A stretch of 34,692 nucleotides of DNA from Gammaproteobacteria bacterium (GTDB lineage: Bacteria; Pseudomonadota; Gammaproteobacteria; SZUA-140): NCBI GenBank assembly GCA_020845975.1, contig JADLET010000099.1:1-34692 (forward strand), in the 5' to 3' direction. The notes under the pieces are model-generated. The model was not told the DNA's origin. It ran no database searches and saw only the letters and a list, made by a program, of their open reading frames with translations. Below, one piece after another: positions 6,416 through 23,237 of the stretch (positions are counted from its first letter, which is position 1; every line of letters starts with the position of its first letter). The position numbers and the translations under genes are program-made.

Positions 6416-6439
6416 GGGGGCGGACTGAAGTCCGTCCCC
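6416..6439. repeat. Second hairpin touching the stop codon of the first TraF-like gene
   Basis: The left arm at 6416-6425 and right arm at 6430-6439 form a 10-bp stem with one mismatch and the loop TGAA. The right arm touches the stop codon of the TraF-like gene (6439-6441). A diverged copy of this hairpin and of the adjacent terminator lies downstream of the second TraF-like gene. Confidence 0.65.
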
Positions 6440-7680
6440 TAGAACCTGAACCCTAACTGAAACGCTGCCCCGATTTCATCGCTGTTGCCGGCAACCCCCA
6501 GATCAAAATGGATGCCAAAGGGCGAAAAGCCGATCCCCGCCGTCGCCACACCCTGCTCGACGCCAGCAGGCACATCACTCATGTTATGACGATAGCCCAG
6601 CCGCAACTGCGCGGTATCGAACAGATCCAGTTCGACTCCAACAGCCGCATACTGCGTCCTGGAGTCGAATCCTGCCGGCTCGTTTTCCGTCAGATCGATG
6701 TCGGCCGCCACAGTGACCCAGTCGTTCTGGTGCGCGACGCCCAGCCGCGTCATTGGTTCGATCTTGAATGTGTTTCCCAGCGCCGTCTCGTACTCGCGCG
6801 CGAGCAGGTTCCTAATCGTCAGCCCGGCCTTCCAGCCATTGCCATAATCCTTCGCGATACCGACATCGACATTGAAACCTGAATCCTTCCGTTCGCCCTG
6901 ACTGAGATCAATCTCGGCGTTGTCGATCTCATTGCCAACGAAGCGATAGTCGAAGGTCCTGACCCCGACGTATTTGGGCGTGAGACCCACCGCGATGCCA
7001 CCAAGGACATCGAACTCCCGCGCAATCGAAACACCGACCTCACTCAGGAAGGCGAAGCGTGCGCTCACGGAGGAAGTCAGGGTGTCAGTCGGGTCGGTCA
7101 CGGGCTGGGTGCCCAGCGCGTCGTCGATGGCCTGCTGAACCGCAGCAAGATCGGCGCCGGTGACCTCGTCGGTCACGCCACCAACCAGATAGGCATTGGC
7201 CAATATCGAGATTCCAAATTTCCGCCCCGGTATTCCTATCACGACAGCGGCATCGCCCTCGCCCGTCAGCGCCTTGTCTGACAGGTTCCGCAACTGCTCA
7301 ATCAGGGCATCGCCGGTGGTCTCAACAGCCGCTGCGGTTATCGAACCAGGCGTCGCGGTGTATGCGTCGACGGCAGCGGAAAAATCCCCGATCGGATCCT
7401 GGTCACTGAATTCATCGATGGCGTCGATCAGCTCATCCGGATCGGAGATGCGGCCGCCGAGGATCGGCAGTTCCAGGCTGAAATCCTCGCCTTCCCGTGC
7501 CGCCGCCAGAAGCGCGGGATTCAAGAAGACGGCATTGGCGCTGGTCCCGGCGGCCACGCCGGCCCCGCCCATGCCGAACGAGCGCGGGTCGAAGGAGTTG
7601 AACGGTACGGCGCCGGCCCCGGTACCAATGGACATCAGGCCCAACGTGGTCGAACACAGAATGAACTTTCTGCCAAGCAT
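6439..7680 (-). CDS. TraF-type outer-membrane beta-barrel protein, copy A
   Basis: Predicted outer-membrane barrel of the family annotated as conjugal transfer protein TraF (TraF_2), which has distant FadL-like features. The 413-residue product has a signal peptide (about residues 1-24, ending GAGA). The N-terminal motif is GMGGAGVAAGTSANAVFLNP. Amphipathic strands run through the body, and the protein ends in phenylalanine (LGFRF), as many barrels recognised by the BAM machinery do. The ATG at 7678-7680 has AGAGGGG 6 bases upstream; longer frames lack this. A tandem paralogue of the same length follows at 7924-9165. No other conjugation genes are present, so a role in conjugation is not supported. 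Transport or envelope structure is possible, but the function is unknown. Confidence 0.8.
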   Translation of the reverse strand: MLGRKFILCSTTLGLMSIGTGAGAVPFNSFDPRSFGMGGAGVAAGTSANAVFLNPALLAAAREGEDFSLELPILGGRISDPDELIDAIDEFSDQDPIGDFSAAVDAYTATPGSITAAAVETTGDALIEQLRNLSDKALTGEGDAAVVIGIPGRKFGISILANAYLVGGVTDEVTGADLAAVQQAIDDALGTQPVTDPTDTLTSSVSARFAFLSEVGVSIAREFDVLGGIAVGLTPKYVGVRTFDYRFVGNEIDNAEIDLSQGERKDSGFNVDVGIAKDYGNGWKAGLTIRNLLAREYETALGNTFKIEPMTRLGVAHQNDWVTVAADIDLTENEPAGFDSRTQYAAVGVELDLFDTAQLRLGYRHNMSDVPAGVEQGVATAGIGFSPFGIHFDLGVAGNSDEIGAAFQLGFRF

Positions 7681-7923
7681 GGACAGCCCCTCTTTAGTTG
7701 CCTGCTGATGGACAGGGAGATAATGAATACCACCGGACTGCGCGCGATGGTCGCGCACATTCAACACAGTGAATATTGGTGACAATCAACCTATCGACTG
7801 GCGAGGATGTGAACTTTAAGCAAAGACAGGCGGGTACGGCGATGGGAAAGGACCGATAATCGAAAGCGAGTCAGATTTGAAATCCGTTCCGCATTTTATG
7901 GCGGCGGATCGGACGTCCGTCAC
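7681..7923. other. Intergenic region between the two TraF-like paralogues
   Basis: This 243-base gap should hold the promoter of copy A on the minus strand. I see TTGATT-like text near 7783 but no convincing partner -10 box. Its right end (7866-7923) is a diverged copy of the terminator and hairpin region found after copy A at 6381-6439. The upstream part has no visible gene. Confidence 0.5.
7866..7923. repeat. Decayed copy of the 6381-6439 hairpin region
   Basis: The core CAGATTTGAAATC is identical in both regions. TTTTATGG and GTCCGTC follow at matching distances, and both end at the stop codon of a TraF-like gene. Here the first stem has several mismatches and its T-run is shortened, so terminator function is probably weakened. 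The shared downstream region supports a tandem duplication of gene plus 3' flank. Confidence 0.7.
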
Positions 7924-9165
7924 CTAAAATCTGAACCCGAGTTGCATTGCCGCGCCGAATTCATCGCCATTGCCGGCGACGGCGAGGTCGACCTGGACAC
8001 CGAATGATGTGAATCCCAGGCCACCTGTCACGAGATCCGCCTCGGTATTGGCGGGGACATCGCTCAGGTTGTGACGGTAGCCCAGGCGCAGTCGCGCAAT
8101 CTCGAACAGGTACAGTTCAGTACCCAGGGAAGCGTAGCGCGTCTTCGGCTCGTAGCCACTGGCATCGTTCTCCGTCAGATCGAGATCCGCTACTGCGGTA
8201 AGACAGGAATTTGCGTACGCGACACCGGCGCGCGCCATCGGCTCGAGCCTGAATTCATTGCCAAGGACTGTTTCGTAGTCCTGAGGGATCAGATTTTTGA
8301 CCACCAGACCCAGCTTCCAGCCGTTCTCATATTCCTTGGCCAGGCCGACATCCAGAGTGATGCCCATGTCATCCTGCTGGCTGTCGCTCAGACTGACCTC
8401 TGCCGTATCGATCTCACTGCCGACGAACAGAAAATCATAGGTTCGCACGGCCACGATCTTGGGTGTGATCCCGACGGACAGCCCGCCGAGGACATCGAAA
8501 TCGCGCGCAATCGCCACGCCCACCTCGGTGACGCGGCTGAAGCGCGCGCCTACCAGGGATGTCAGCGTATCCGTGGGATCATCGAGGGCAAGGAGATTCT
8601 GGGCATCATCCATCGCCTGCTGGATCGCCGCGAGATCCTCGGCGGAGGCCTCACCCACCGCCCCACCGACCACGTTCGCGTTCACATATGCCGCCAGGCC
8701 GAACTTCGGATGCGGTATGCCAACAACAAATCCGAGGTCCGCCTCCGCCGACAGGATCTTGCCGGACACATTCTGCAATTGATCAATCAACTCTGAACCG
8801 GCGGACTGAACCCCGGCGGCCGTGCCCGCGTCCGGAGTGGCGATATAGGCGTCGACGGCATCCTGAAATACGCCGATCGGCTCGATCTCGTTGAACTCGT
8901 CGATGGCATCCGACAACAGCCCCGGATCGGTGACCCGTCCACCGATTACGGGCAGCTCCAGGCTGTACGCCTCCCCTCCGGCCGAGCGCGCCAGAAACGC
9001 TGGATTGATAAAGACGGCGTTTGCCGCGGTTCCCGCCGCCACGCCAGCGCCGCCCATGGCGTAAGTGCGCGCATCAAACGAACTGAAGGGAACAGCGCCG
9101 GCGCTGCCAGCGATCGCCGTCAGCATAAACGCGCCGGCATAGCGAATAGATTTTTTCCTGGACAT
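7924..9165 (-). CDS. TraF-type outer-membrane beta-barrel protein, copy B
   Basis: Paralogue of the gene at 6439-7680 and, like it, exactly 413 residues. By eye it is alignable end to end and similar at about half of its positions. It has a signal peptide (about residues 1-25, ending GSAGA), the barrel-family motif AMGGAGVAAGTAANAVFINP, conserved FDVLGGLSVGITPK, and the terminal LGFRF. The ATG at 9163-9165 was chosen, since a longer frame adds a charged leader before the signal peptide. It lies 160 bases downstream of trpC on the same strand. Function unknown; both copies are kept full-length, which suggests distinct roles. Confidence 0.8.
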   Translation of the reverse strand: MSRKKSIRYAGAFMLTAIAGSAGAVPFSSFDARTYAMGGAGVAAGTAANAVFINPAFLARSAGGEAYSLELPVIGGRVTDPGLLSDAIDEFNEIEPIGVFQDAVDAYIATPDAGTAAGVQSAGSELIDQLQNVSGKILSAEADLGFVVGIPHPKFGLAAYVNANVVGGAVGEASAEDLAAIQQAMDDAQNLLALDDPTDTLTSLVGARFSRVTEVGVAIARDFDVLGGLSVGITPKIVAVRTYDFLFVGSEIDTAEVSLSDSQQDDMGITLDVGLAKEYENGWKLGLVVKNLIPQDYETVLGNEFRLEPMARAGVAYANSCLTAVADLDLTENDASGYEPKTRYASLGTELYLFEIARLRLGYRHNLSDVPANTEADLVTGGLGFTSFGVQVDLAVAGNGDEFGAAMQLGFRF

Positions 9166-9325
9166 GGAGCGGTCTCTTTCCTCCGAAGGCTGGAACAACC
9201 TCGCCGCTGGCTGTATGGCTCAATGCGGGACGCGGCGAAAGGTGAGGGACCGGGCCGCTGAGGCGCCAGTCAGCGTATCGACTCCGCGCGGGCGGACTTT
9301 AACCACGGAAGCATCCGGGGCCGGA

Positions 9326-10114
9326 TCAGCCGAACAATTTCTTCAGCTCGGCGCCCGGATCCTGGGCACGCATGAACGCCTCGCCCACCAGGAATCCGTT
9401 AACACCACGCTCGCGCAGACGTTTCACGTCCGCCACGGTATGGATACCGCTTTCGGTGACCACGATGCGGCCCGGAGGAATGGCGTGCAGCAGGTCGAGC
9501 GTCGTCTCGATCCGCGTCTCGAAGCTGCGCAGGTCGCGGTTATTGATCCCGACCAGCGGCGTAGCAAGCTTCAGCGCCCGCGCCAGCTCGGTGGCGTCGT
9601 GCACTTCGACGAGGACATCCAGGCCAAGCTGCGCGGCAAGTGCGGCGTATTCCCCCAGCTGGCCGTCATCCAGCGCGGCGACGATCAGCAGGATGCAGTC
9701 GGCGCCGAGCACACGCGACTCGTAGATCTGATACGCGTCGACCATGAAATCCTTGCGTAGCGCCGGCAGGGCACAGGCCGCGCGGGCCTGGCGCAGGTAC
9801 TCGTCATCACCCTGAAAAAAGTCCCGGTCGGTCAACACCGAGAGGCAGGCGGCGCCGCCTTTCTCATAGGAGACCGCGATATCGGCGGGATGGAAATCCT
9901 CGCGCAATACCCCGCGACTCGGCGAGGCCTTCTTGATCTCCGCGATCACGGCGGCTTGCCCCCTGTCGATACGATGGCGCATCACGGTGGTGAAACCGCG
10001 CGTCGGCGGCAGATCCGCGACCCGTGCGCGCAAATCATCAAGCGGCCGCCGGGCGCGGCGCCCGGCCACCTCCTCCGCCTTGCGGCGCAGGATGCGTTGC
10101 AGAATATCACTCAT
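9326..10114 (-). CDS. trpC: Indole-3-glycerol phosphate synthase
   Basis: TIM-barrel enzyme converting CdRP to indole-3-glycerol phosphate in tryptophan synthesis. The 262-residue monofunctional form, with no TrpF fusion, carries [13 protein letters not shown] with the catalytic Lys, the LRKDF strand, GINNRDL and VTESGI. The start [20 protein letters not shown] aligns with pseudomonad TrpC. The bases before the ATG are pyrimidine-rich (GTCTTTCCC) with no Shine-Dalgarno match, and the upstream gap from trpD is filled by heptanucleotide repeats. Last of trpG-trpD-trpC here. Confidence 0.96.
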
Positions 10115-10123
10115 GGGAAAGAC

Positions 10124-10153
10124 AGGACTGAGGACTCAGGACTTAGGACTAAG
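10124..10153. repeat. Heptanucleotide array (AGGACTN)x4 upstream of trpC
   Basis: Four perfect tandem units on the plus strand, AGGACTG, AGGACTC, AGGACTT and AGGACTA (10124-10151), differ only at the seventh base. The array lies 9 bases upstream of the trpC start codon. An inverted array lies 38 bases away at 10192-10213, so the trpD-trpC transcript could fold these into one long hairpin. Confidence 0.85.
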
Positions 10154-10191
10154 TCATTAAACAATAGCAGTCTTTGCATTTACTTGGCCCT

Positions 10192-10213
10192 TAGTCCTGA
10201 GTCCTTAGTCCTT
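10192..10213. repeat. Inverted heptanucleotide array (NAGTCCT)x3 at the trpD stop
   Basis: TAGTCCT, GAGTCCT and TAGTCCT (10192-10212) are the reverse complement of the AGGACTN unit. The array covers the trpD stop codon (10205-10207), so the last trpD codons and its TAA are read out of the repeat. Confidence 0.85.
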
Positions 10214-11251
10214 GGCTTTTTCCGGCTCAGTCATTTGATGGGTCAACCGCACCAGCTCATCCAGCCTGATGCGCGCCTCACCGCTCCTGAGCACCGCGCG
10301 CGCCTTCTCTATACCGGCAGCGAGCGTCTCCGCAAGCCCCGCCACGTAGATCGCCGCGCCGGCATTGAGCGCAACAACATCGCTCGCGACGCCGGGCCTT
10401 CCATCGAGCACATCCCTGACGATGGCAAGGCTCTGCGAGGCATCTTCCACCGCCAGGGCGGACGCTGCGGCGGGCGCCAGCCCGAACTGCTGAGGGGTGA
10501 TCGTGTACAGAACGACGTCGTTGTTCCGCAACTCGGCGACGTGTGTCGGCGCGCCAAGGCTGATCTCGTCCATGCCGTCTTCGGAATGCACCACCATTAC
10601 ATGCCGGCTGCCCAGGTTCCCGAGCACACGCGCCAGCGGCTGCAACCATTCGCGCGCGAACACGCCGATGACCTGATTGGGCGCGCCGGCCGGGTTGGTG
10701 AGCGGGCCGAGCAGATTGAACAGGGTGCGCACCCCCATCTCGCGGCGCGGACCGATGGCGTGCTTCATCGCGCCATGATGGCGCGGCGCGAACATGAACC
10801 CGACGCCGACCTCGTCGATGCAGCGAGCCACCTGCACCGGCGTGAGATCGAGCTTGACACCGGCGGCCTCAAGCACGTCCGCGCTGCCGCAGCGGCTGGA
10901 TACCGAGCGATTACCATGCTTGGCCACGCGACCGCCGGCGGCCGCGACCACGAACGCGCTGGCGGTGGAAATATTGAACGTGCGCGCGCCGTCACCGCCG
11001 GTGCCGCAGGTATCGACCAGATGGTCCGGCGTCACGTCCACCTTCTCGGCCAGATCGCGCATGACCCGCGCGGCGGCGGCGATCTCGTCAATCGTCTCGC
11101 CCTTCATGCGCAGGCCGACAAGAAATCCGCCGATCTGCGCCGGCGTGGACTGGCCGGTCATGATCAGGCGCATGACCGCGTCCATCTCCGCGCCGGAAAG
11201 ATCACGCCGCTCGGTGACGGCACGTATGGCTGAGGACATGTCCATGTTCAT
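10205..11251 (-). CDS. trpD: Anthranilate phosphoribosyltransferase
   Basis: Transfers phosphoribose from PRPP to anthranilate, the second step of the tryptophan branch. The 348-residue product has the glycine-rich PRPP motif [17 protein letters not shown] (residues 80-96), [19 protein letters not shown], and the later [16 protein letters not shown]. The start ATG overlaps the trpG stop as TGATG, indicating translational coupling. The C terminus ends EKAKD, where the terminal Lys-Asp-stop is encoded by the AGGACTN-type repeat and could be a late extension. ATG codons at positions 3 and 5 are alternative starts. Confidence 0.97.
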
Positions 11252-11832
11252 CAGTTGGTCTCGAGAAAGTTCCTCAGCAGGTCGTGCCCCACCTGCGTCA
11301 GAATGGATTCCGGATGGAACTGCACCCCCTCGATCGCGTATTCCCGGTGGCGCAGGCCCATGATCTCATCGATCCCGCCGTCTTCGTCCACCGTCCAGGC
11401 GGTCACCTCGAGACAGGCGGGCAGACTGGCGCGCTCGACGACCAGGGAATGGTAGCGCGTCGCCTCGAAGGGATTGGGCAGCCCGCGGAACACCCCGGTG
11501 TCCGCATGGTGTATCAGCGAGGTCTTGCCGTGCATCACCGTGCGCGCATGCACCACTTTCCCGCCGAAGGACTGGCCGATCGCCTGATGGCCGAGGCAGA
11601 CACCGAGCAGCGGGACGCGGCCGGCGAAGGTACGGATCACCTCCAACGAGACCCCCGCCTCGTTTGGCGTGCACGGCCCCGGCGAGATCACAATGCGCTC
11701 GGGGGCCAGGGCGGTGATGTCGGCGATATTGATCTGGTCGTTGCGGGCCACCTTCACGTCTGCGCCCAGCTCGCCGAAATACTGCACCAGGTTATAGGTG
11801 AAGGAATCGTAGTTATCGATCATCAACAACAT
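11251..11832 (-). CDS. trpG: Anthranilate synthase glutamine amidotransferase subunit
   Basis: Class I glutamine amidotransferase that supplies ammonia to TrpE. The 193-residue product begins [20 protein letters not shown], has the oxyanion motif [12 protein letters not shown] and the nucleophile C79 in [10 protein letters not shown], and a His/Glu pair in QFHPES. The ATG at 11830-11832 is preceded by GGGAAGG at 7 bases. That region is also the end of the upstream matrixin gene, whose last codons overlap the trpG start by 10 bases. Translation of trpG may therefore be coupled to the protease gene. Confidence 0.96.
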
Positions 11833-12665
11833 GTCTTGACCTTCCCGTCCCGCTGTACCCGCATGATACCCCGCCGGCCACGGCGGCAAAACGCCCGCCG
11901 CGCGCCCCAGCCCAGCAGGGCCAGCGCTGCCAAAGCCCCATCGGCGCCCGCGCTGTCATTCTGGGAGACGGCGCTGGTGCTGCTATTCGCGCCCTCATAG
12001 AGAAATTCGACACCCTGAATATCATCGGTTTGCAGGGTTTCAACATCGCTCACCTGCGAATTCATGATCGCCGTGACCTGCTGAAATGCATCGTTGGGAT
12101 GCTCGAGACCGAGGGCGTGTCCAAGCTCGTGAATGATAACGCGGTGAAAATCATAGGTCCCGGACTGTAATTGTCCCGACCGCTGCGCGATCCACGGCCG
12201 GGACTGATCCACCATGATATCGGTGTCGGATAATTCCCACCGGCCATTGCGGCGTACATGAGTAACCTGGGTCACGGCCAGGGCATCACCGAACGCCTGT
12301 CCAGCACAGGTTGTCTGCCGGAATCCGGCGGCATTTATCCCGTCCGCGGCATTGGTTCCAGTGATCTTGTCACAGGGCTGCGCGGCGCTGGCTCCCTCTT
12401 GAAATTGCAGCGGGGTACCGACCGCATTCCAGCTAGTCTGCATGGCATCCAGCAAACTTGCCTTGTAGGCGTCGCTGAAATTCAGCGTCATCTCTACGAC
12501 AAGCTTTGCATCAGGCCACACAACAGGATTGATGTTGGTGTCGGTCTGAAGGGGCTGCGGACCACTGCTCGCGACACTGGGCTGTCCGAAGAAGGCATAG
12601 GCGCCGGCCGCGGATGGAAGGACGATCAGACACACCGCACATGCTGTTGGGGCAAGCCGTCTCAT
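11823..12665 (-). CDS. Secreted matrixin-type zinc metalloprotease with C-terminal sorting-like tail
   Basis: Predicted extracellular or surface protease of 280 residues. A signal peptide (about 1-23) precedes a mature domain with the metzincin zinc site [12 protein letters not shown], with H179, E180, H183 and H189, followed by a Met-turn candidate AIMNS (M201). C98 and C120 may form a disulfide. The C terminus (about 238-266) has a small polar stretch, a hydrophobic segment and an Arg-rich cluster ([11 protein letters not shown]), the layout of CTERM-type sorting signals. I cannot assign a named subtype. The ATG overlaps the stop of the upstream gene (ATGA), and the stop overlaps trpG by 10 bases. 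The pair is an insert between trpE and trpG. Confidence 0.85.
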
Positions 12666-13219
12666 GGCGCGGACAGCTCCTCGCGGATGCCGCGGGTAAA
12701 CTCTTCCAGCGTCGGCTGCCCCGGCAGGACGAGCGCACGCACAACCAGGTTGTCGCCCTGGTCCGCGCGCAGGACATGCTGCTGCCCGTCCGGATCGGCC
12801 AGCACCCGGTACAAGCCTTGGTAGGCGCCGACCAGCGGTATCAGTTCGCGCCGGTTGCCGCGCACGAACAACACATAGCGTCCACCCGGCGTCAGCTCGG
12901 GCATACCCGGATAGGTCTGGGCGGTATCCCCGACGACACCACCGGGCAGGCTCAGTTCGTAGGGCACAGAGGGAACCTCGCCCTTGATCACCTCGAGATC
13001 GGCCAGGCTGACCGTGGTTGAGATCGTCTGCCGGTCCGCCGACCATGCGCTGTGTGCGTCGGAAACCGTGCCGACGATGATGAGCTCCGCCTCCCGGACC
13101 AGTTCGGGAAAGGGACGCGGCACCACGGTGAGCGCCTGTGCGGCGCCGGACATCAGCAGGCACAGCATCCAGACGCCGCCCACTACCGCGGCGGCTCCGG
13201 ATCGCCGGGTCCGCACCAT
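12662..13219 (-). CDS. Exported protein of unknown function, coupled to matrixin
   Basis: 185-residue exported protein: basic N terminus MVRTRRSG, a hydrophobic segment and a likely cleavage after AAQA (about residue 29). The mature part has a pattern I associate with small secreted beta-barrel domains: EAELIIVGTVSDAHSAW, a strand-rich TTVSLADLEVIKGEV, then PGGRYVLFVRG and GLYRVLADPDGQQHVL. This is reminiscent of TIMP/netrin-like OB folds, but that is a weak impression by eye. The ATG at 13217-13219 was chosen; GTG codons at 13240 and 13237 are alternatives. Its stop overlaps the protease start by 4 bases (ATGA), so the two are co-translated and probably act together. Confidence 0.65.
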   Translation of the reverse strand: MVRTRRSGAAAVVGGVWMLCLLMSGAAQALTVVPRPFPELVREAELIIVGTVSDAHSAWSADRQTISTTVSLADLEVIKGEVPSVPYELSLPGGVVGDTAQTYPGMPELTPGGRYVLFVRGNRRELIPLVGAYQGLYRVLADPDGQQHVLRADQGDNLVVRALVLPGQPTLEEFTRGIREELSAP

Positions 13220-13422
13220 GTTGTTAATAACCTTCACCACGATAACACCCTGGATTACAACCCATGCTGCGACCGATCGGGTCGAGGCGACATACGCATG
13301 GATATGATCTTACCCCATAGGACCCTGGCGCGGCGTCATAATTCCCGCCACCGCCGCATCCGGACCGAATGCGGACTAGACTCTGGAAATCCCTTTCGGG
13401 TGCCCGCGCGGGGCGGCGCCGG
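13220..13422. other. Gap between trpE and the protease pair
   Basis: About 200 bases with no gene. On the minus strand a hairpin (13354-13374, 8-bp stem with one G-U pair in the RNA) follows the trpE stop. Weak -10-like text, TAAGAT, lies near 13308-13313. The gap could end or attenuate trpE transcription and start the protease pair, but no T-tract or good -35 is visible. Confidence 0.35.
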
Positions 13423-14898
13423 TCACTTCAGGCCGGCGGCGACCAGGGCAACGGCGCGGAACATGGCCCGCCCCTTGTTCATGGTCTCTTCCCATTCGCG
13501 CGCGGGAACGGAATCGGCGACGATGCCGGCGCCGGCCTGGATGTGCAGCCGACCGTCCTTGATTACGGCGGTGCGAATCGCGATCGCGGTATCCATATTG
13601 CCGCTCCAGCCGATGTAGCCGACCGCGCCGGCGTAGACACCGCGCTTGAGTGGTTCAAGTTCATCGATGATCTCCATCGCACGAACCTTGGGCGCTCCCG
13701 ACACGGTGCCGGCCGGGAAGGTGGCGCGCAGCACGTCGAGCGCCGACTGGCCGGGACGCAGCGCGCCGGTCACATTCGACACGATGTGCATGACGTGCGA
13801 ATAGCGCTCGATCACCATGCGTTCGGTCACGCGGACGCTGCCGGTCTGCGCCACCCGGCCGACGTCGTTGCGGCCGAGATCAATCAGCATCAGATGTTCG
13901 GCGCGCTCCTTGGGATCGGCGAGCAGCTCCTGCTCCAGCGCGCGGTCCTGCGCCTCGCCGGCGCCGCGCGGCCGGGTGCCGGCGATGGGACGCACGGTCA
14001 CCTCGCCGTCCTCCACGCGCACGAGGATCTCGGGCGAGGAACCGACGACATGGAAATCCTTCAGGTTCAGATAGAACATGTACGGCGAAGGATTGAGGAC
14101 TCGCAGGCCGCGATACAAATCGAGCGGTTCAGCCGTGTATGGCACCGACAGGCGCTGCGACAGCACCACCTGCATCAGGTCACCGTCGACGATGTAACGC
14201 TTGGCGCGCTCCACCGCCGCCTCGAAGTCAGCGCGGGTGAATTCCGACACAAAGTCTTCTTCGCCGACCCTGAAAGGCGCCGCTGGCGTGGACGTGCGGG
14301 CCACCGCCTGGCGCAGCTGCGCCTCGAGACGGTCGAGTTCCCGTTCCGCGTCCGCCAGCGGCGCCACCGGATCCGCATACAGGATAATGTGGAGCTTGCC
14401 CGAGAGGTTGTCGAACACGACAACGCCGTCGCTCAACATGAGCAGGATATCGGGCGTGCCCAGGGCATCACGCCCCGGACACCGGGAAAGGCGCGGCTCG
14501 ATATAGCGTACCGTGTCATAGCCGAAGTAGCCGACCAGACCGCCGGTGAAACGCGGGAGTCCGTCGATCTCCGGCACGCGATAACCGGCGCGGAAGGCTT
14601 CGATCCAGGCCAGCGGATCAGTCGTCTCCTCGCGACGCACCTCGCGCCCGTCGGTCTCGACGGTGACGATGTGTCCGCTGACGCGCACCACGGTGCGGCA
14701 GGGCAGGCCGATGATCGAATAGCGGCCCCACTTCTCGCCTCCGTGGACGGATTCGAACAGATAGGTGTAGGGCTGGTCCGCCAGCTTCAGGTAGGTGCTG
14801 AGCGGGGTATCGAGATCGGCCAGCACTTCGCGCATCACCGGGATGCGGTTGTAGCCCTGGGCACGCAAGTCATCGAAGGCGTCGGGTGTCATGGCCAT
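13423..14898 (-). CDS. trpE: Anthranilate synthase component I
   Basis: Converts chorismate to anthranilate using ammonia from TrpG, the committed step of tryptophan synthesis. The 491-residue product resembles pseudomonad TrpE: GYNRIP near the start, [47 protein letters not shown] and [10 protein letters not shown]. The N-terminal tryptophan-binding motif, LLES in many homologues, reads LFES (47-50), so feedback inhibition is probably kept. The start is either ATG at 14898 or ATG two codons later; neither has a clear ribosome-binding site. It follows gph by 19 bases. Confidence 0.97.
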
Positions 14899-16455: not shown

Positions 16456-17496
16456 TCAGGCGCGGATGAGTCCGTGCTTGAGAAGGGAACGCTGCACCGC
16501 CCACCAGCTTACGGCGATGACCGCCAGCGTCACAATGATATCGAACATCGAGCTCATCGGGGCATGGTAATACTGGCTGTCGATCGAGCCGGAGATCCAG
16601 GTATACCGCTCGATCCAGGTACCGAGCACGATGAAACAGGCCACCATGGTGATGATCACCGGATTATGGCGGTTCGGAGTGATCGCCAGTGTGCAGAACG
16701 GGATGATGAACTTGAAGGTCAGGAAGGTCCACCACAAGGCGCCATAGCCCTCCAGCATCATGCTGTTGTAGCGATGCGTCTCCTCCGGCAGACGGCCGTA
16801 CCACATGATCAGATACTGGGTGAAGTAGAGATAGGTCCACAGGATGGTCATCGCCAGCATGAACTGCGCCATGTAATTGAATATGTAATGCTGGAACGGC
16901 GTGGCCAGCTTGCCCGAGCGGTTGATGAAGAACAGGAAGATGGTGAAGAAACCCAGGAACATGTGGAAATTGCTCTGGAAATGATAGGCGCCATAGCTCG
17001 CGCTGTGCCAGCCTGGCATCTGGGTCATCTCGAAGTCCCATGCCACCATCGTACCGTAGATGAAGTAGGCGAACGGGATCAGCAGCGCGATGTTGCGGAA
17101 ACGGCGCTGCGCCGCATATGAGCTGTCGATCTCGCTCTGGTGCTGGTATTTGATGAACATGCCGCACAGAATCACCACCGCGAGGAACCCGCCAATCTCG
17201 CGCGCCACCAGAAAGCTGTAATTATGCCAGCCGTTCAGATGGTGGCCCTCGTCATGGGCATGGCCCATCCACTGAAACGTCGCGTCGCCATTGAAGAGCA
17301 GGATCAGCAGCAGCACGCCGGCGATTGGAAACAGCACGGCAAAGGCGCAGGCAAGCCTGCGGACCTGGAAGCGCCATTTTCCGTTGACCAGGTGCAGCAC
17401 GGACGACAGGGTCACGCCGCCGAGCGCGATGTAAAGCGTCATCAGGAAGTTCGTCGTCAAGACCGACCAGCTGCCAAAATCCTCTGCGTTCGCCAT
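16456..17496 (-). CDS. actF: Alternative complex III membrane subunit ActF (NrfD/PsrC-like)
   Basis: Polytopic inner-membrane subunit related to ActC. The 346-residue product has repeated hydrophobic segments along its length (for example residues 15-37, 48-69, 98-116, 134-152) consistent with the ten-helix NrfD-like fold. His and acidic residues cluster in GHAHDEGHHLNGWHNYSF. In known complexes ActF pairs with ActC in the membrane core. It is last in the operon, 30 bases after actE, and is followed by a strong palindromic terminator. No actG-like gene follows it. Confidence 0.92.
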   Translation of the reverse strand: MANAEDFGSWSVLTTNFLMTLYIALGGVTLSSVLHLVNGKWRFQVRRLACAFAVLFPIAGVLLLILLFNGDATFQWMGHAHDEGHHLNGWHNYSFLVAREIGGFLAVVILCGMFIKYQHQSEIDSSYAAQRRFRNIALLIPFAYFIYGTMVAWDFEMTQMPGWHSASYGAYHFQSNFHMFLGFFTIFLFFINRSGKLATPFQHYIFNYMAQFMLAMTILWTYLYFTQYLIMWYGRLPEETHRYNSMMLEGYGALWWTFLTFKFIIPFCTLAITPNRHNPVIITMVACFIVLGTWIERYTWISGSIDSQYYHAPMSSMFDIIVTLAVIAVSWWAVQRSLLKHGLIRA

Positions 17497-17526
17497 CCCC
17501 GCCTCTCGATATTACTGTCGTTGGAC

Positions 17527-18099
17527 TTATTGCGCGGCAGCCGTCTTGGTCGGCTCGGCCGCGGCGTCTTTCACCAATTGGTGGCGCACGTAATTGACCA
17601 CCTGCCAGCGCTCTTCGACGGACAGATCGTCGGAACCGCGGCCATCGTCGCGAGCCGTCGGCTTGCCATACGCCGGCATGATGTAGCTGCCAAAGGTGAT
17701 GGTGCCGTAGATCCACCCCTCGGTCAGCGTCTTCTGTACATAGTCATCCACAAGCGGTATCGCGCCGATCTTGCTCGACACAGGAGAGTCGGCCTTGCCG
17801 GTCTGCCCGTGACAGGCACCGCAGTAGATCCGGAACAGGGTCTTGCCCTTGGCGAGCACCTCGGGTGTGACTGGTATCGGGCTGGTCAGGGGCTTCGCCT
17901 CATCACGGTTCGCGACCTCCGTCAGCAGCATATCGCTGTCGACCCTGTCCGTACGCAGCGGGATGGAACGCTTAGGGAACGGCGCCATCTCACCTTCCTG
18001 CGGCTTGATGCTGGGCTGGTCCATCATGTCAGTCGACCACGGCCATGCCCAGGCCACGACCGGAAACAGTGCCGCCGCAACCGCTATCCTGTATTTCAT
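17527..18099 (-). CDS. actE: Alternative complex III monohaem cytochrome c subunit ActE
   Basis: Periplasmic monohaem cytochrome c of the complex, probably the exit point for electrons. The 190-residue product has an N-terminal signal (about 1-18, AWA), one haem motif CGACH (93-97), and a candidate axial Met in SYIMPAYG (M141). There is no lipobox Cys after the signal, so it looks soluble or held by protein contacts rather than lipid-anchored. Its ATG overlaps the actD stop as ATGA, which shows coupling. The C terminus is Ala- and Lys-rich. Confidence 0.93.
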   Translation of the reverse strand: MKYRIAVAAALFPVVAWAWPWSTDMMDQPSIKPQEGEMAPFPKRSIPLRTDRVDSDMLLTEVANRDEAKPLTSPIPVTPEVLAKGKTLFRIYCGACHGQTGKADSPVSSKIGAIPLVDDYVQKTLTEGWIYGTITFGSYIMPAYGKPTARDDGRGSDDLSVEERWQVVNYVRHQLVKDAAAEPTKTAAAQ

Positions 18100-18623
18100 T
18101 GGATAACCTCTTCCCGAATCTCCAGAACCTGATGCTGCCGGAACAGCTTCTTGATCGGCTCGACGTACTTCTCTTCCAGTTCCATTTCGATACCGACCTG
18201 GTCGAGGGTGACCTTCTCGCTGTACAGGCTCTTGCGCTTGCGCAGCAGGCGCGCGCCGATCATCAGCCCGGCCAGAGTGAAGAATACGCTGAACAGAATC
18301 AGCATCTCATAGGTGATCACGATGTTGGACGGCAGCGGGATCACCGGCTTGCCGCCCTGGGGCTGCACGGTGAAATTGGCCTCCGAGGCAGCCAGGAATA
18401 TGAAGCCTATGGTCGATCCGCACAGTGCACCGACCAGCGTGAACTTCGGCACATGCGCCGGCCTCTCGCCCAGCACCTCCTCGATCTCGGGGTGCTCGAT
18501 TGGCGAAATCACCGTGACATCATCAACGGATACGCCGGGCACCTTGTAATGCCGAATATCCGAGATGGCGGCGAACGCCTCGTCGAAGTTGCAAAACAAG
18601 GCCAGAATGCGCGCTTTCTTCAT
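18096..18623 (-). CDS. actD: Alternative complex III subunit ActD (DUF3341)
   Basis: Integral membrane subunit of 175 residues. The soluble N-terminal domain starts KKARILALFCNFDEAFAAI. Two transmembrane helices follow, near 62-80 and 103-124, joined by a periplasmic loop, and the tail is charged and helical. This is the usual ActD layout. Its start overlaps the actC stop as ATGA and its stop overlaps the actE start, so C, D and E are translated as a coupled set. Confidence 0.93.
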   Translation of the reverse strand: MKKARILALFCNFDEAFAAISDIRHYKVPGVSVDDVTVISPIEHPEIEEVLGERPAHVPKFTLVGALCGSTIGFIFLAASEANFTVQPQGGKPVIPLPSNIVITYEMLILFSVFFTLAGLMIGARLLRKRKSLYSEKVTLDQVGIEMELEEKYVEPIKKLFRQHQVLEIREEVIQ

Positions 18624-20041
18624 GATTTTACCCCCTCCAGGCCGGCCTCACCCGATGGCTTGGCATCACCCGCCCGCCGATGCATAACGCTCGCGATGTC
18701 CTTGTGTGCGATATGACGGCGATGGAAGATCATTTCCTTGACCTCGTACATCGAGACCGACGGTATCACCTTGACGAAGACCAGGAACAGCAGGCCGAAC
18801 CAGCCGAAGCTGCCGATCACGATGAACCACTGCACCCAGCTCGGCCAGCTGACGCTGAAGGCAAACGGCTCATAGGAGGCGGACAGGGTCGGGCCGACGA
18901 TCATCCAGCGATCCAGCCACATGCCGATGTTGAGCAGGATGGAAATCACGAACATCGCCGATATGCTGCGGCGGATCTTTTCGAAGGCCATCGTGAACGG
19001 CACGACGGAGCCGAGGAACAGCATGGCCCAGAAGTACGGCGAGTATGTCCCGGTGAACTTGTCGATCAGCAGTTCCTTGGCGACCATGTCATGGCCATAC
19101 CAGACGGAGCTGAACTCGACCAGGTTCAGGTAGGTCCACACCATCGCGATGGCGAACGTGAGCTTGCAGGTCTTGTCGAGGATAGGCAGCGTCATGTAAT
19201 CCTCGAAGCGGAAGTAGTAACGCAGCAGCACGAACAGCGTGATGATGCCCGCGCAGCCCGAGTACAGGGCGCCAGCGACGAAATATGGCGGGAAGGTGGT
19301 GACGTGCCAGCCCGGCATGATCGACATGGCGAAGTCGGACGATACGATGGAGTGCACCGACACCGCCAGCGGGATCAGGAAACACGCCATGATCAGATAC
19401 GCCTTGCGGAAATGGCGCCACTGACGATCGTCACCGCGCCAGCCGAGCGACAGCGCCGTATAAAGCTTCTTGCGCCAGCCGCGGGCGTTATCACGGCAGA
19501 TCGCCAGGTCAGGGATCGAACCGATGTAAAGGAACAGGGCGGATGAGGTCAGATAGGTGCCGATCGCGAAGGCGTCCCACACCAGTGGCGAGCGGAAGTT
19601 GGGCCAGATGCCGCGGTCGCTGTAGTAGGGCAGCACCCAGTACATGTTCCACAGACGGCCGAGATGGATGATCGGGAAAAGACCCGCCGTCATCAGCGTG
19701 AAGGTGGTCATGGCCTCGGCAAAACGATAGATCGGCTTGCGCCAGTCAGCATGCGTGATGTGCAGGATCGCTGACAGCAGGGTGCCGGAGTGGCTCATGC
19801 CGATCCAGAAGATGAAGGTCGCTATGTACAGGCCCCACATCTGCGGCCAGTTCAGATTGGCGACTCCCATGCCGGTGTTGTACTGATAGACCTCGGCAAT
19901 CACCGCCAGCGAAAGCAGCGCCAGGCACACGACCACCGAGACCCAGTACCCCATGCGCGGATTTTCCATCGAGCGCAGGACGTCCTCGTTGATCTTCGCC
20001 CAACGGATGTCTTCATTAATATCTTTATGTTGATCGCTCAT
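18620..20041 (-). CDS. actC: Alternative complex III quinol-site subunit ActC (NrfD/PsrC-like)
   Basis: Polytopic membrane protein of 473 residues from the NrfD/PsrC family, believed to carry the quinol oxidation site. The first helices are visible at about 31-55 and 68-94 (WIGMSHSGTLLSAIL), and regularly spaced hydrophobic segments continue through the protein. Conserved family text includes MSIMPGWHVTTFPPYFVAGALYSG-like residues in the middle. It follows actB2 by 39 bases and overlaps actD by 4. The C-terminal tail is long and charged. Confidence 0.95.
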   Translation of the reverse strand: MSDQHKDINEDIRWAKINEDVLRSMENPRMGYWVSVVVCLALLSLAVIAEVYQYNTGMGVANLNWPQMWGLYIATFIFWIGMSHSGTLLSAILHITHADWRKPIYRFAEAMTTFTLMTAGLFPIIHLGRLWNMYWVLPYYSDRGIWPNFRSPLVWDAFAIGTYLTSSALFLYIGSIPDLAICRDNARGWRKKLYTALSLGWRGDDRQWRHFRKAYLIMACFLIPLAVSVHSIVSSDFAMSIMPGWHVTTFPPYFVAGALYSGCAGIITLFVLLRYYFRFEDYMTLPILDKTCKLTFAIAMVWTYLNLVEFSSVWYGHDMVAKELLIDKFTGTYSPYFWAMLFLGSVVPFTMAFEKIRRSISAMFVISILLNIGMWLDRWMIVGPTLSASYEPFAFSVSWPSWVQWFIVIGSFGWFGLLFLVFVKVIPSVSMYEVKEMIFHRRHIAHKDIASVMHRRAGDAKPSGEAGLEGVKS

Positions 20042-20080
20042 TTCCGGGTCCGCCGCTTCGTCATGAGTTATTCTCCGGGA

Positions 20081-20953
20081 TTACACTTCGCGCACGCGCT
20101 CGAGGAACAGCACCTTGGGATCGGTATTGAGTCCCTCCAGGACGCGGTAGCCACGCAGCTCCGGGTCCTGCTTCACTTGCTTGGCCTTGCCGAGCTCAAC
20201 CTGATGCTTGCGCCACAGCGCGGCGGCCTGGGTGTTCTCGACTCCCTTGCCCGGGCTGTGCATATCGAGGATGTCCCCGAAGGTCATGGCCGATGTCGGG
20301 CAGGTCTGCACACAGGCCGGCTGGACCTCGCCGTCCAACACCTTGCGATCCTGCATCTTCGCCTTGTCCTTGACGGCACGGATGCGCTGCACACAGAACG
20401 TGCACTTCTCCATGACGCCCTTGTCGCGCACGGTGAGGTCGGGGTTCAGCTGCATGTGCAGCGGCGCCGGCCACGAGCTCTCGTAGTATGAGAAGAAATT
20501 GAAGTAGCGCAGGCGGTACGGGCAGTTGTTCGAGCAATAGCGCGACCCGATACAGCGGTTGTAGACCTGCGCATTCAGTCCATCCGGGGTGTGATAGGTC
20601 GCCGCGACCGGGCATACGGGCTCACAGGTGGCCGCATTGCACTGCTGGCAGTGCATCGGCAGGAAGCTCGCGCCGTGATGCTGGAACTCCGCCACGCGCC
20701 CCTCGCCGAGATCCGGCTCATCCCAGTAGCGCTCGATGCGCAACCAGTGCATGGCATGGCCATCGGCGAAGCGGTCCTTGCCGACCACAGCCAGGTTGTT
20801 CTCGGCATAGCAGGCAACCACGCAGGCGCTGCATCCCGTGCACTTGTTGAGGTCGATGACCCTGCCCCACATGTGCTCGTAGTCATGGAAGCCTCCCTCC
20901 TCCGCGCCCTTGCGGTATTTGGACCAGTTGGTGAGGATGTTCTCCAGGGACAT
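20081..20953 (-). CDS. actB2: Alternative complex III iron-sulfur subunit, ActB C-terminal half as a separate gene
   Basis: Four-cluster ferredoxin subunit, equivalent to the C-terminal (B2) domain of the usual fused ActB. The 290 residues contain fifteen cluster cysteines: C38/41/44/48, C102/105/110/114, C134/140/144 and C184/187/214/218. In the third motif the second Cys is Ser (CIGSRYC, S137). This predicts three [4Fe-4S] clusters and one [3Fe-4S], which agrees with the cluster content reported for ActB. It has no signal peptide and is presumably exported with ActB1. Its ATG overlaps the actB1 stop (TGATG). Confidence 0.93.
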   Translation of the reverse strand: MSLENILTNWSKYRKGAEEGGFHDYEHMWGRVIDLNKCTGCSACVVACYAENNLAVVGKDRFADGHAMHWLRIERYWDEPDLGEGRVAEFQHHGASFLPMHCQQCNAATCEPVCPVAATYHTPDGLNAQVYNRCIGSRYCSNNCPYRLRYFNFFSYYESSWPAPLHMQLNPDLTVRDKGVMEKCTFCVQRIRAVKDKAKMQDRKVLDGEVQPACVQTCPTSAMTFGDILDMHSPGKGVENTQAAALWRKHQVELGKAKQVKQDPELRGYRVLEGLNTDPKVLFLERVREV

Positions 20954-23175
20954 CAGGCTTCTCCTTCAGTACGCGCGAACACGTCCGCGGTCACGGTAGC
21001 CACCAGTTTGCGGCCCAGCTGAACCTCGCTGCCGCCCAGCTTGACCAGCTTGTCCCCCGCCTTGTCCGCGATGCGCGTGACCTGGACGCGAGTGGCATGA
21101 TTCGCCAGCTCGCCGGTCTTCGTCTCAGTGGCAAGACCGAGGATCTTGAGCGGGTTGACTCCGCGTCCCTGGGCGTAACGGCCATAGGCCTCGTGGCCCT
21201 GACCGAGCGGCACCGCGATAGCATCCGGATGCATGCCTTTATAGATATAGACCTTCGCCTCGATCGCACCGTGCTCGGATTCGATCCGGACGCGATCACC
21301 GGTCTTGACGCCGATTTTCGCAGCTGCGGACGGATGCAATTCGGCCCAGGAGTCCCACACCACCTTGCTGATCGGATCGGGGACTTCCTGCAGCCAGGGC
21401 AGATTGGCGTAGCGGCCGTCCCGCAGGTTCGCGCCCGCGCTAGGGACCAGCGTGAATGGCCGCCCCTCTTCGGCAGGCTCCGCGACCGTGAAGGACACGA
21501 CCCGGGTTGCCAGGTTGCCGCGACCGGCGCCGACCTCGATCACGCCCTTCTGCACGGCGCGCGTCCAGAACTGCTGGTCGCTGATGGTCCCCAGCTTGAG
21601 CGCCGCAGGCAGCGCGGCGAAGGCGTTGCGCAGATATGCGTAATAGTCGTCATAGGCGCTGTATTGCGGCGCCTTGCGCAGCTTCAGGAGCGCGAGAATG
21701 GCGTCGCCGAAGCCGCGGGTCTCGGGATAGAGCGGCTCCATCAGCGGCTGCTGCATGTTGATCTGCATCTGCTCGGGCTGCGCGGCAGGCACATGGGTGC
21801 CCCAGTCTTCCAGCGCCGAACGGAGCGGCAGCACGAGGTCGGCCTGTTGCGCGGTCTCGTCATCAAACTGCGTGAACGCGACCTTGAACGGCACAACAGC
21901 GAGTTTGTCCTTGAGCTTCAGCGCCTCTGGCGCGGTATATACCGGGTTCGTGCCGGAGAAGAACACCACATCGAAACTCTTGGACTCGAGAGCAGCGGCG
22001 AAATCAAGCAGTTCCTTGTTGCCACCCGTCTTCGCGGCCAGTTGCGGGAACGGGAAACCCGCGCTGGACTCCAGGGTCTTGCCCACGTTGCCGAGCATGA
22101 TGTTCAGAAGCATTGCGGCCGCGACGCTGTCGTAACCGCGCGCATGACCCGCGGCAGAAGCACCCGCCAGCACCAGGCTAGGTCCCCGCTCGTTGAGCAG
22201 GCCGGCGATTCTGATGATGTGTTCACCGGTCACGCCGGTGATGCGCGCAGCATTGTCGAGATCGTAGGCGCGAATCTGCTCCTGCGCCTCGGCGGGCAGG
22301 CTCGAGATATCGCGGTGGTGCTTGCTCACCAGCACGTTTGCGATGGCCAGCGCGAGCACGCCCTCGGCGCCCGGACGCACCGGCACCCACAGATCCGCGC
22401 TGGCGCCGGTCACGGTCATCTTGGGTTCCGCCTGGATCAGCACACCACGCGGCGCGGTGCGGAACTCACTGTATTGCGTAGAATTATGGATGGGCGAGCC
22501 CCAGGTGGACAGGAAGTCGGCTCCGAAAGAAAGAATCACTCGGGCCTTGTCCACGCGCAGCCGGGGATTCTCATCGCCCAGCATATCGCGGCACACCGCG
22601 CGCCAGACGGCATCGTTTACCGCCTCGTGCACATAGTGATGACGCGAACCAATGGCGTCCATCCAGGCCTTCAGCAGCACCGCCTGGTGTCCGCTGACGG
22701 TATCGCTCACCCAGGCAAAGCGGTCACCGGCCAGCCCCGAGGATGGTCCTGCCTTTTCGTCCAGCAGCGCGAACGCCTGCTCCCAGCTGATCTGCTCGAA
22801 CTGGCCGTTGCGGCGCACACGCGGCGCGGTGATGCGGTCAGGATTATAGTGCGCCTGCAGAGACGCCTGCCCGGCCGGGCACAGCTTGCCGCGGTTGACC
22901 TGCGATTCAGGATTGCCTTCGAGCTTGAGCACGCGGCCTTCACGCACGCGCCCGTGCACACCGCAGCCGGAGCCGCATTGCGCGCAGGTAGTGGCGTACC
23001 AGACGCCGATGCCGGGGATGACATATTCCTCCGGGGCGAGGTAGGCGACCACCTCCTCCTTGCCTTCCTGGACGGTGACCGTGGTGGGCATGTCGCAGCC
23101 GGCCAGCGTCGTGCCGACGCCGCCCCACCCGAGCACCTTGAGAAATTCTCTTCGCTTCATTTTATCGAGACTCAT
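20953..23175 (-). CDS. actB1: Alternative complex III molybdopterin-oxidoreductase-like subunit, ActB N-terminal half
   Basis: 740-residue protein of the molybdopterin oxidoreductase superfamily, equivalent to the B1 domain of ActB, which in studied complexes lacks the Mo cofactor. The N terminus carries a twin-arginine motif KRREFLK (7-13) and a lipobox LAGC (24-27), so it looks like a Tat-exported lipoprotein. An FS0-like cysteine set is present at C64, C67, C71 and C99 (CAQCGSGCGVHG, then KLCPAGQ). The ATG at 23173-23175 has GGAG 10 bases upstream; a GTG at 23199 would bury the Tat motif. It follows actA by 62 bases. Confidence 0.93.
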   Translation of the reverse strand: MSLDKMKRREFLKVLGWGGVGTTLAGCDMPTTVTVQEGKEEVVAYLAPEEYVIPGIGVWYATTCAQCGSGCGVHGRVREGRVLKLEGNPESQVNRGKLCPAGQASLQAHYNPDRITAPRVRRNGQFEQISWEQAFALLDEKAGPSSGLAGDRFAWVSDTVSGHQAVLLKAWMDAIGSRHHYVHEAVNDAVWRAVCRDMLGDENPRLRVDKARVILSFGADFLSTWGSPIHNSTQYSEFRTAPRGVLIQAEPKMTVTGASADLWVPVRPGAEGVLALAIANVLVSKHHRDISSLPAEAQEQIRAYDLDNAARITGVTGEHIIRIAGLLNERGPSLVLAGASAAGHARGYDSVAAAMLLNIMLGNVGKTLESSAGFPFPQLAAKTGGNKELLDFAAALESKSFDVVFFSGTNPVYTAPEALKLKDKLAVVPFKVAFTQFDDETAQQADLVLPLRSALEDWGTHVPAAQPEQMQINMQQPLMEPLYPETRGFGDAILALLKLRKAPQYSAYDDYYAYLRNAFAALPAALKLGTISDQQFWTRAVQKGVIEVGAGRGNLATRVVSFTVAEPAEEGRPFTLVPSAGANLRDGRYANLPWLQEVPDPISKVVWDSWAELHPSAAAKIGVKTGDRVRIESEHGAIEAKVYIYKGMHPDAIAVPLGQGHEAYGRYAQGRGVNPLKILGLATETKTGELANHATRVQVTRIADKAGDKLVKLGGSEVQLGRKLVATVTADVFARTEGEA

Positions 23176-23237
23176 CGCGGGACCACTCCGTTCAATCACG
23201 CATCATCGGGCGCTGTTTCGTGTCGGAAGGACACGCG

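Follow-up and report, generated by a model that had tools for sequence, protein, structure and literature searches.

The window analysed here, a stretch of 34,692 nucleotides that makes up an entire contig (G000:C99) of a gammaproteobacterial assembly of 2.9 Mb in 207 contigs, encodes a small secreted protein directly next to a matrixin metalloprotease. This protein, hereafter the partner, has a predicted TIMP-like fold and its relatives are always found beside or fused to a protease; it is therefore probably an inhibitor of the adjoining enzyme. We consider it likely that the two form a protease-inhibitor module, in which a disulfide-free TIMP-like inhibitor would insert its free N-terminus into the active site of the matrixin.

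The gene pair and its locus

The pair is located within a tryptophan operon (window 9326-14898, minus strand). The trpE-side neighbourhood is shared with a sister genome (L002), and in G003 the pair is located elsewhere. Two further regions of the window, both on the minus strand, were observed: two neighbouring genes at 6439-9198 with the similar starts GAVPFNSFD and GAVPFSSFD, the second of which belongs to the TraF_2 family (PF13729, E 4.6e-41), and a gene run at 16456-23199 that by eye resembles alternative complex III, with NrfD-like membrane subunits, a cytochrome and an iron-sulfur subunit. The features of the pair and its immediate neighbours are the following.

13423-14898, minus strand: trpE, followed in order by partner, matrixin, trpG, trpD and trpC
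12662-13219, minus strand: partner gene, a 185-residue secreted protein with a predicted TIMP/NTR-like OB fold (open reading frame and translation, AlphaFold2, Foldseek)
13133-13219, minus strand: signal peptide of the partner, residues 1-29, ending in A-Q-A, no lipobox cysteine
13118-13132, minus strand: predicted free mature N-terminus L-T-V-V-P, putative zinc-site wedge
12980-12985, minus strand: conserved Lys-Gly after strand B, also found in N-TIMP2 as FKG (alignments)
12815-12829, minus strand: conserved G-x-x-Q-G motif, aligned close to the Cys101 loop of TIMP-2 (family alignment)
12662-12665, minus strand: ATGA overlap of partner stop and matrixin start, putative translational coupling (sequence)
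11823-12665, minus strand: matrixin (M10A-like) metalloprotease of 280 residues, the presumed target (PF00413, E 1.8e-11)
12099-12131, minus strand: zinc-binding motif of the matrixin (translation, alignment)
12057-12068, minus strand: Met-turn IMNS of the matrixin (translation, alignment)
11871-11954, minus strand: GlyGly-CTERM-like tail of the matrixin (Gly-rich, hydrophobic stretch, RR; compared with the tails of other paired matrixins)
start at about 11832, minus strand: trpG, overlapping the matrixin stop

A sequence-only reading of this DNA had proposed a TIMP/netrin-like protein, possibly a protease inhibitor, co-translated with an MMP-like metalloprotease. The open reading frame is where that reading placed it, with the signal peptide ending in AQA ahead of mature LTVVP, and the three strand stretches it quoted (AELIIVGTVS, TTVSLADLEVIKGEV and PGGRYVLFV) are all found in the partner. 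The DNA is also consistent with co-translation, as the partner stop and the matrixin start share the ATGA. The same -4 overlap of partner and protease genes occurs in G002, G003, L007, L009, L015 and L024, and we infer translational coupling of the two genes.

The downstream open reading frame proved to be the proposed metalloprotease. It matches PF00413 with 44.6 bits against a cut-off of 24, displays the M10A features HExxHxxGxxH and Met-turn, and finds MMP-16, MMP-14 and MMP-1 as sequence matches in the PDB. A vertebrate-type cysteine-switch propeptide is absent, with no cysteine and only about 25 residues before the catalytic domain. We rejected the missing propeptide as a mark of paired matrixins: it is not diagnostic of pairing because unpaired bacterial matrixins of the same genomes also lack it.

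A Gly-rich, hydrophobic and then basic tail ends the window matrixin and most of its paired relatives, and is a possible sorting signal for rhombosortase and the type II secretion system (T2SS). GlyGly-CTERM is not among the NCBIfam matches listed for the matrixin. The genome itself contains a rhombosortase (155 bits, G000:C131:4072-4527) and the type II secretin GspD (585 bits, G000:C177:9491-11239). Since several paired matrixins carry GlyGly-CTERM-like tails, the module may be T2SS/rhombosortase cargo.

Predicted fold and mature N-terminus of the partner

Direct sequence searches with the partner gave no match in Pfam (E<=10), NCBIfam, PHROGs, the PDB or plasmids. We modelled the mature protein using AlphaFold2 with 22 homologues in the input and obtained a confident model (pLDDT 91.8, pTM 0.86) with an extended N-terminus, a helix at residues 8-14, five principal strands and two paired helices at the C-terminal end. 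In a blind Foldseek search against the PDB, 21 of the top 22 matches were TIMP/NTR-superfamily domains, mostly with a probability of 0.9-1.0. They are led, in order, by agrin NtA, the PCOLCE1 NTR domain (the third-best match), TIMP-2, TIMP-1 and the meteorin NTR domain, and the PDB title of agrin NtA reads 'structurally related to N-TIMP-1'. N-TIMP-3 follows at rank 29 (TMt 0.59). The scores are modest, with E-values of about 2e-3 to 1e-1, none reaching 0.001, and TM-scores of 0.3-0.6. Other OB folds (CsaA, SSB) appear further down the list with a probability of about 0.5.

A naturally fused relative (L012) was modelled as well. Its model is of lower quality (pLDDT 71, pTM 0.55) with a poorly modelled catalytic half, and its partner domain is only about 25% identical; the single chain matches MMP catalytic domains, karilysin included, together with agrin NtA, TIMP-1 and TIMP-2. 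At the level of prediction, the OB fold is thus supported twice because this divergent fusion repeats the result of the window partner. Structure prediction and fold search gave no confident non-OB fold, and with leading PDB matches nearly all of the TIMP/NTR type they bear out the TIMP/netrin-like OB fold suggested by the sequence-only reading. Overall, a predicted five-stranded OB barrel of the TIMP/NTR type with an N-terminal strand-helix segment is well supported.

The relation to TIMPs is less clear by sequence. Using hhalign, the family profile aligns with N-TIMP2 such that partner residue 8 is paired with TIMP-2 residue 8, and the alignment extends through the FKG. It falls short of significance, with P 0.056 and a score at least as high in 3 of 100 shuffles. 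The resemblance to the TIMP pattern that had been noted from the letters therefore holds in its register, which is the one expected for TIMP-2, and is weak in its sequence score; proof of TIMP homology from sequence was dropped, and the case is carried much further by the predicted structure and the gene neighbourhood. Three marks of TIMPs are absent. The partner starts with LTVVP and not with Cys1-X-Cys3. The three conserved disulfides of the TIMP N-domain are missing, as the mature window partner contains zero cysteines, like most of its relatives. Pfam TIMP (PF00965) has no match at E<=10 in the partner, none among 19 relatives and none over cut-off in 229 gammaproteobacterial genomes. Because all three failed, we file the partner as a TIMP-like superfamily protein, not as a member of the TIMP family, which may work like a TIMP. 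The G-x-x-Q-G motif would, judging from the alignment, correspond to the TIMP ridge.

In TIMPs, the zinc ligands are the backbone amine and carbonyl of residue 1, while the cysteine side chain is only tied into a disulfide, so a zinc-binding N-terminus free of cysteine would be chemically plausible. TIMP inhibition depends on the mature N-terminus, with Cys1-X-Cys3 coordinating zinc (PMC9409782), and N-TIMP2 cannot be tagged at its N-terminus (PMC11429640). The mature starts are CTCVP in TIMP-1 and CSCSP in TIMP-2 (PMC11870142, PMC11429640). In the partner family, the predicted position of this end is strict. Of 23 members, 21 satisfy the (-3,-1) rule of signal peptidase at a site 21 residues ahead of the strand-A glycine, compared with 13 at the best neighbouring offset; the three-letter spacing depends on manual anchoring of each sequence at its strand-A motif. 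Signal peptides of the family end in A-x-A with no cysteine at +1 and are thus not of the lipoprotein type. Mature position 1 is T, L or S, position 3 is mostly V, and position 2 is Ser or Thr in 18 of the 23 members, comparable to TIMP-1 (CTC) and TIMP-2 (CSC). Numbered from the mature end, the partner reads L1 T2 V3 V4 P5 ... A15 E16 L17 I18 I19 V20 G21 and N-TIMP2 reads C1 S2 C3 S4 P5 ... A15 D16 V17 V18 I19 R20 A21.

The family profile also reaches, weakly, three proteins with cysteines. L044 (CSCVEADLKGQVRSADQVFIG, E 2.5e-5) and L116 (CSCGRSSAKEKFAEADLIVKG, E 1.7e-4) have a mature CSC start at the same spacing, and counting residues in L047 (CSCRPLSVPENFERSAAVFEG, E 3.3e-4) gives this spacing as well. 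There is no protease within about 1.5 kb of L044 or L047 and neither matches Pfam TIMP; no plasmid or solved-structure relative of L044 was found. The three are small secreted proteins with a CSC mature N-terminus and a layout resembling that of TIMPs, possibly Cys-bearing bacterial TIMP-like proteins.

These results bear on two other explanations of the fold. The modest TM-scores and E-values and the non-significant sequence test would fit an accidental resemblance, in which an unrelated small beta-barrel and TIMP are both merely five-stranded OB folds. However, other OB folds rank far below the TIMP/NTR domains, residue numbering agrees with TIMP-2 from the N-terminal segment through the short helix to strand A, and the same profile reaches proteins with a mature CSC N-terminus, making an accident highly unlikely. 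Alternatively, the OB domain could be a module that binds matrix, glycan or protein and recruits the protease to its substrate, comparable to agrin NtA, which binds laminin and whose structures are the top fold matches. NTR folds indeed have non-inhibitory roles in agrin NtA and PCOLCE, which counts against an inhibitor, and accessory binding domains are often fused to proteases. Yet the partner is mostly a separate soluble protein, leaving the two chains unlinked unless they bind each other, and neither the conserved Ser/Thr2 nor the fixed N-terminus would be explained. We regard such a module as quite unlikely.

Linkage and fusion to matrixins

Starting from three relatives, profile searches of 369 gammaproteobacterial genomes yielded 21 confident partner places at E below 1e-15. 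Adding G002, G003, G763 and G764 from beyond this sample gave 25 confident places, and the DNA was read at all of them. Weak profile matches with no nearby protease (L021, L022, L025, L045-L052, L115) are not counted as family members. An HExxH metalloprotease is encoded directly next to the partner in 25 of 25 places, in 20 of them by a separate downstream gene on the same strand and in 5 within the same open reading frame. Measured gaps between the two genes range from -11 to +13 bp and are mostly -4, -1 or a few bases. PF00413 scores at 19 of the 21 places from the 369 genomes; the other two proteases (G056, G368) have HExxH with degenerate or diverged motifs. As the 369 genomes hold only about 100 matrixin places, of which roughly a fifth carry a partner and most do not, chance is no explanation for this association. 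The linkage of partner and matrixin genes is well supported, and the association first seen in the window extends to every confident relative.

The five shared reading frames are natural single-chain fusions with the TIMP-like domain N-terminal to the matrixin catalytic domain. Three are found in G342 (L012, L023, L085), one in G383 (L089) and one in G056 (L087), spread over three bacterial families; the G056 fusion has a degenerate zinc motif (HEVGHSLLGQVH). Natural inhibitor-protease fusions of this kind were not found described in the literature searched. In a separate case, L017 (G185:C6, ORF 925-2403), the open frame of the partner extends further upstream to take in a TPR-like region, after which the signal peptide lies internally, and the partner also has a long C-terminal extension; this is possibly a larger fusion or an annotation ambiguity.

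Gene order and fusion could also indicate that the partner helps the matrixin to fold, adapts it for secretion or activates it, much as PCOLCE, an NTR protein, enhances a metalloprotease. The partner is translated first and is always adjacent, the PCOLCE1 NTR domain ranks high among its fold matches, and its N-terminal position in the fusions resembles that of foldase prodomains. However, the catalytic domains of matrixins are similarly compact and lack a propeptide whether or not a partner is present, so folding seems not to need the partner in general, and this explanation gives the fixed TIMP-like N-terminus no role. We therefore hold a helper or activator to be unlikely.

For the preferred inhibitor, the following mechanism can be proposed. 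Translation would begin with the partner, which Sec would export and signal peptidase I would trim, so that L1-T2-V3-V4-P5 lies free at the edge of the OB barrel. Translation of the matrixin would start at the overlap, and the enzyme would be exported beside the partner. As in TIMPs, the partner N-terminus would then be wedged in the matrixin cleft, here without Cys1/Cys3 disulfides; its amine and carbonyl would sit on the catalytic zinc, and Ser/Thr2 would point towards S1'. This would keep the matrixin inactive in the periplasm before or during export, until secretion, probably by the T2SS, and the enzyme may be anchored or released via its GlyGly-CTERM-like tail. In the fusion relatives, a single chain would carry the TIMP-like domain as a built-in latency domain.

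Relation to known systems and meaning

By analogy, the logic of a protease encoded with an inhibitor or a TIMP-like protein has bacterial precedents in Listeria Mtz-Tim and in Tannerella potempin A-karilysin. Listeria monocytogenes Mtz-Tim (LMRG_00713/00714) consists of a metzincin and an adjacent TIMP-like secreted protein, and the pair is conserved across many bacteria (PMC8235301). Like the window pair, it joins a secreted metzincin with the gene of a TIMP-like secreted protein. In Listeria, tim follows mtz in a phage-derived locus of a Gram-positive host, its product is a lipoprotein and the TIMP similarity comes from Phyre2, whereas the window partner is encoded upstream, has a signal-peptidase-I type signal and belongs to a Gram-negative bacterium; its family is never phage-linked in our data and is sometimes fused to the protease.

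Tim is cut and set free by the Listeria metzincin, and the phenotype requires both proteins (PMC8235301). Following what was proposed there, the partner might instead be the substrate or effector of the matrixin, with the cut releasing an active fragment. Tim is a lipoprotein freed by the cut, but the partner family has a plain signal peptide and would already be soluble. Moreover, the natural N-terminal fusions suit a latency domain, and a substrate would not need a strictly placed mature N-terminus, so that this role, too, appears unlikely.

In the KLIKK/potempin operons of Tannerella forsythia, the karilysin gene is directly preceded by the gene of its specific inhibitor, potempin A (PMC7296668). 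The likeness to the window is one of gene order only, the partner gene being directly upstream of its matrixin gene. PotA was reportedly shown by Ksiazek et al. (Chem Sci, 2023) to be an OB-fold inhibitor that also inhibits MMP-12. Potempins have about 100-130 residues and are outer-membrane lipoproteins, hence their N-terminus is lipidated and not free. In contrast, the partner family has about 156 mature residues, is non-lipidated and has a conserved free N-terminus.

AprI/APRin of Pseudomonas, Serratia and Erwinia (MEROPS I38) is similar in being a periplasmic inhibitor encoded with a secreted metzincin (in part PMC8235301). It differs in fold and in target, the serralysins exported by a type I system. 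AprI/APRin inserts its N-terminus into the protease active site, and its fold is a lipocalin-like up-and-down barrel.

With animal TIMPs (MEROPS I35, PF00965) the partner shares the predicted OB barrel, the N-terminal segment and short helix in the same numbering, Ser/Thr at mature position 2 and, for its presumed target, the matrixin class. It differs from them by the lack of Cys1-X-Cys3, disulfides, TIMP C-terminal domain and Pfam match, and by having a C-terminal helical hairpin, a bacterial origin and a gene encoded in cis with the protease. Overall, the non-lipidated conserved free N-terminus, the occurrence in Gammaproteobacteria and the natural fusions set the family apart from the known systems. 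The wider claim, that a cysteine-free bacterial branch of the TIMP superfamily serves as cognate matrixin inhibitor both in trans and in cis, the latter as a TIMP-MMP single chain, is put forward tentatively and with slightly less than even confidence.

TIMPs are mostly discussed as animal proteins. The partner family, whose predicted fold and free N-terminus are TIMP-like and whose members are without exception linked or fused to matrixins, is a direct test case for how the pairing of MMP and TIMP arose, and it could show whether disulfides are needed for zinc chelation by the N-terminus. It could also point to a new scaffold on which to build MMP inhibitors that do not need disulfides to fold, and supply an annotation for proteins so far absent from Pfam and NCBIfam. 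If the partner is indeed an inhibitor, bacteria would have a disulfide-free form of TIMP-type matrixin inhibition; the pairing of TIMP with MMP would then go back to before the animals, or else the same fold would have given rise to it independently.
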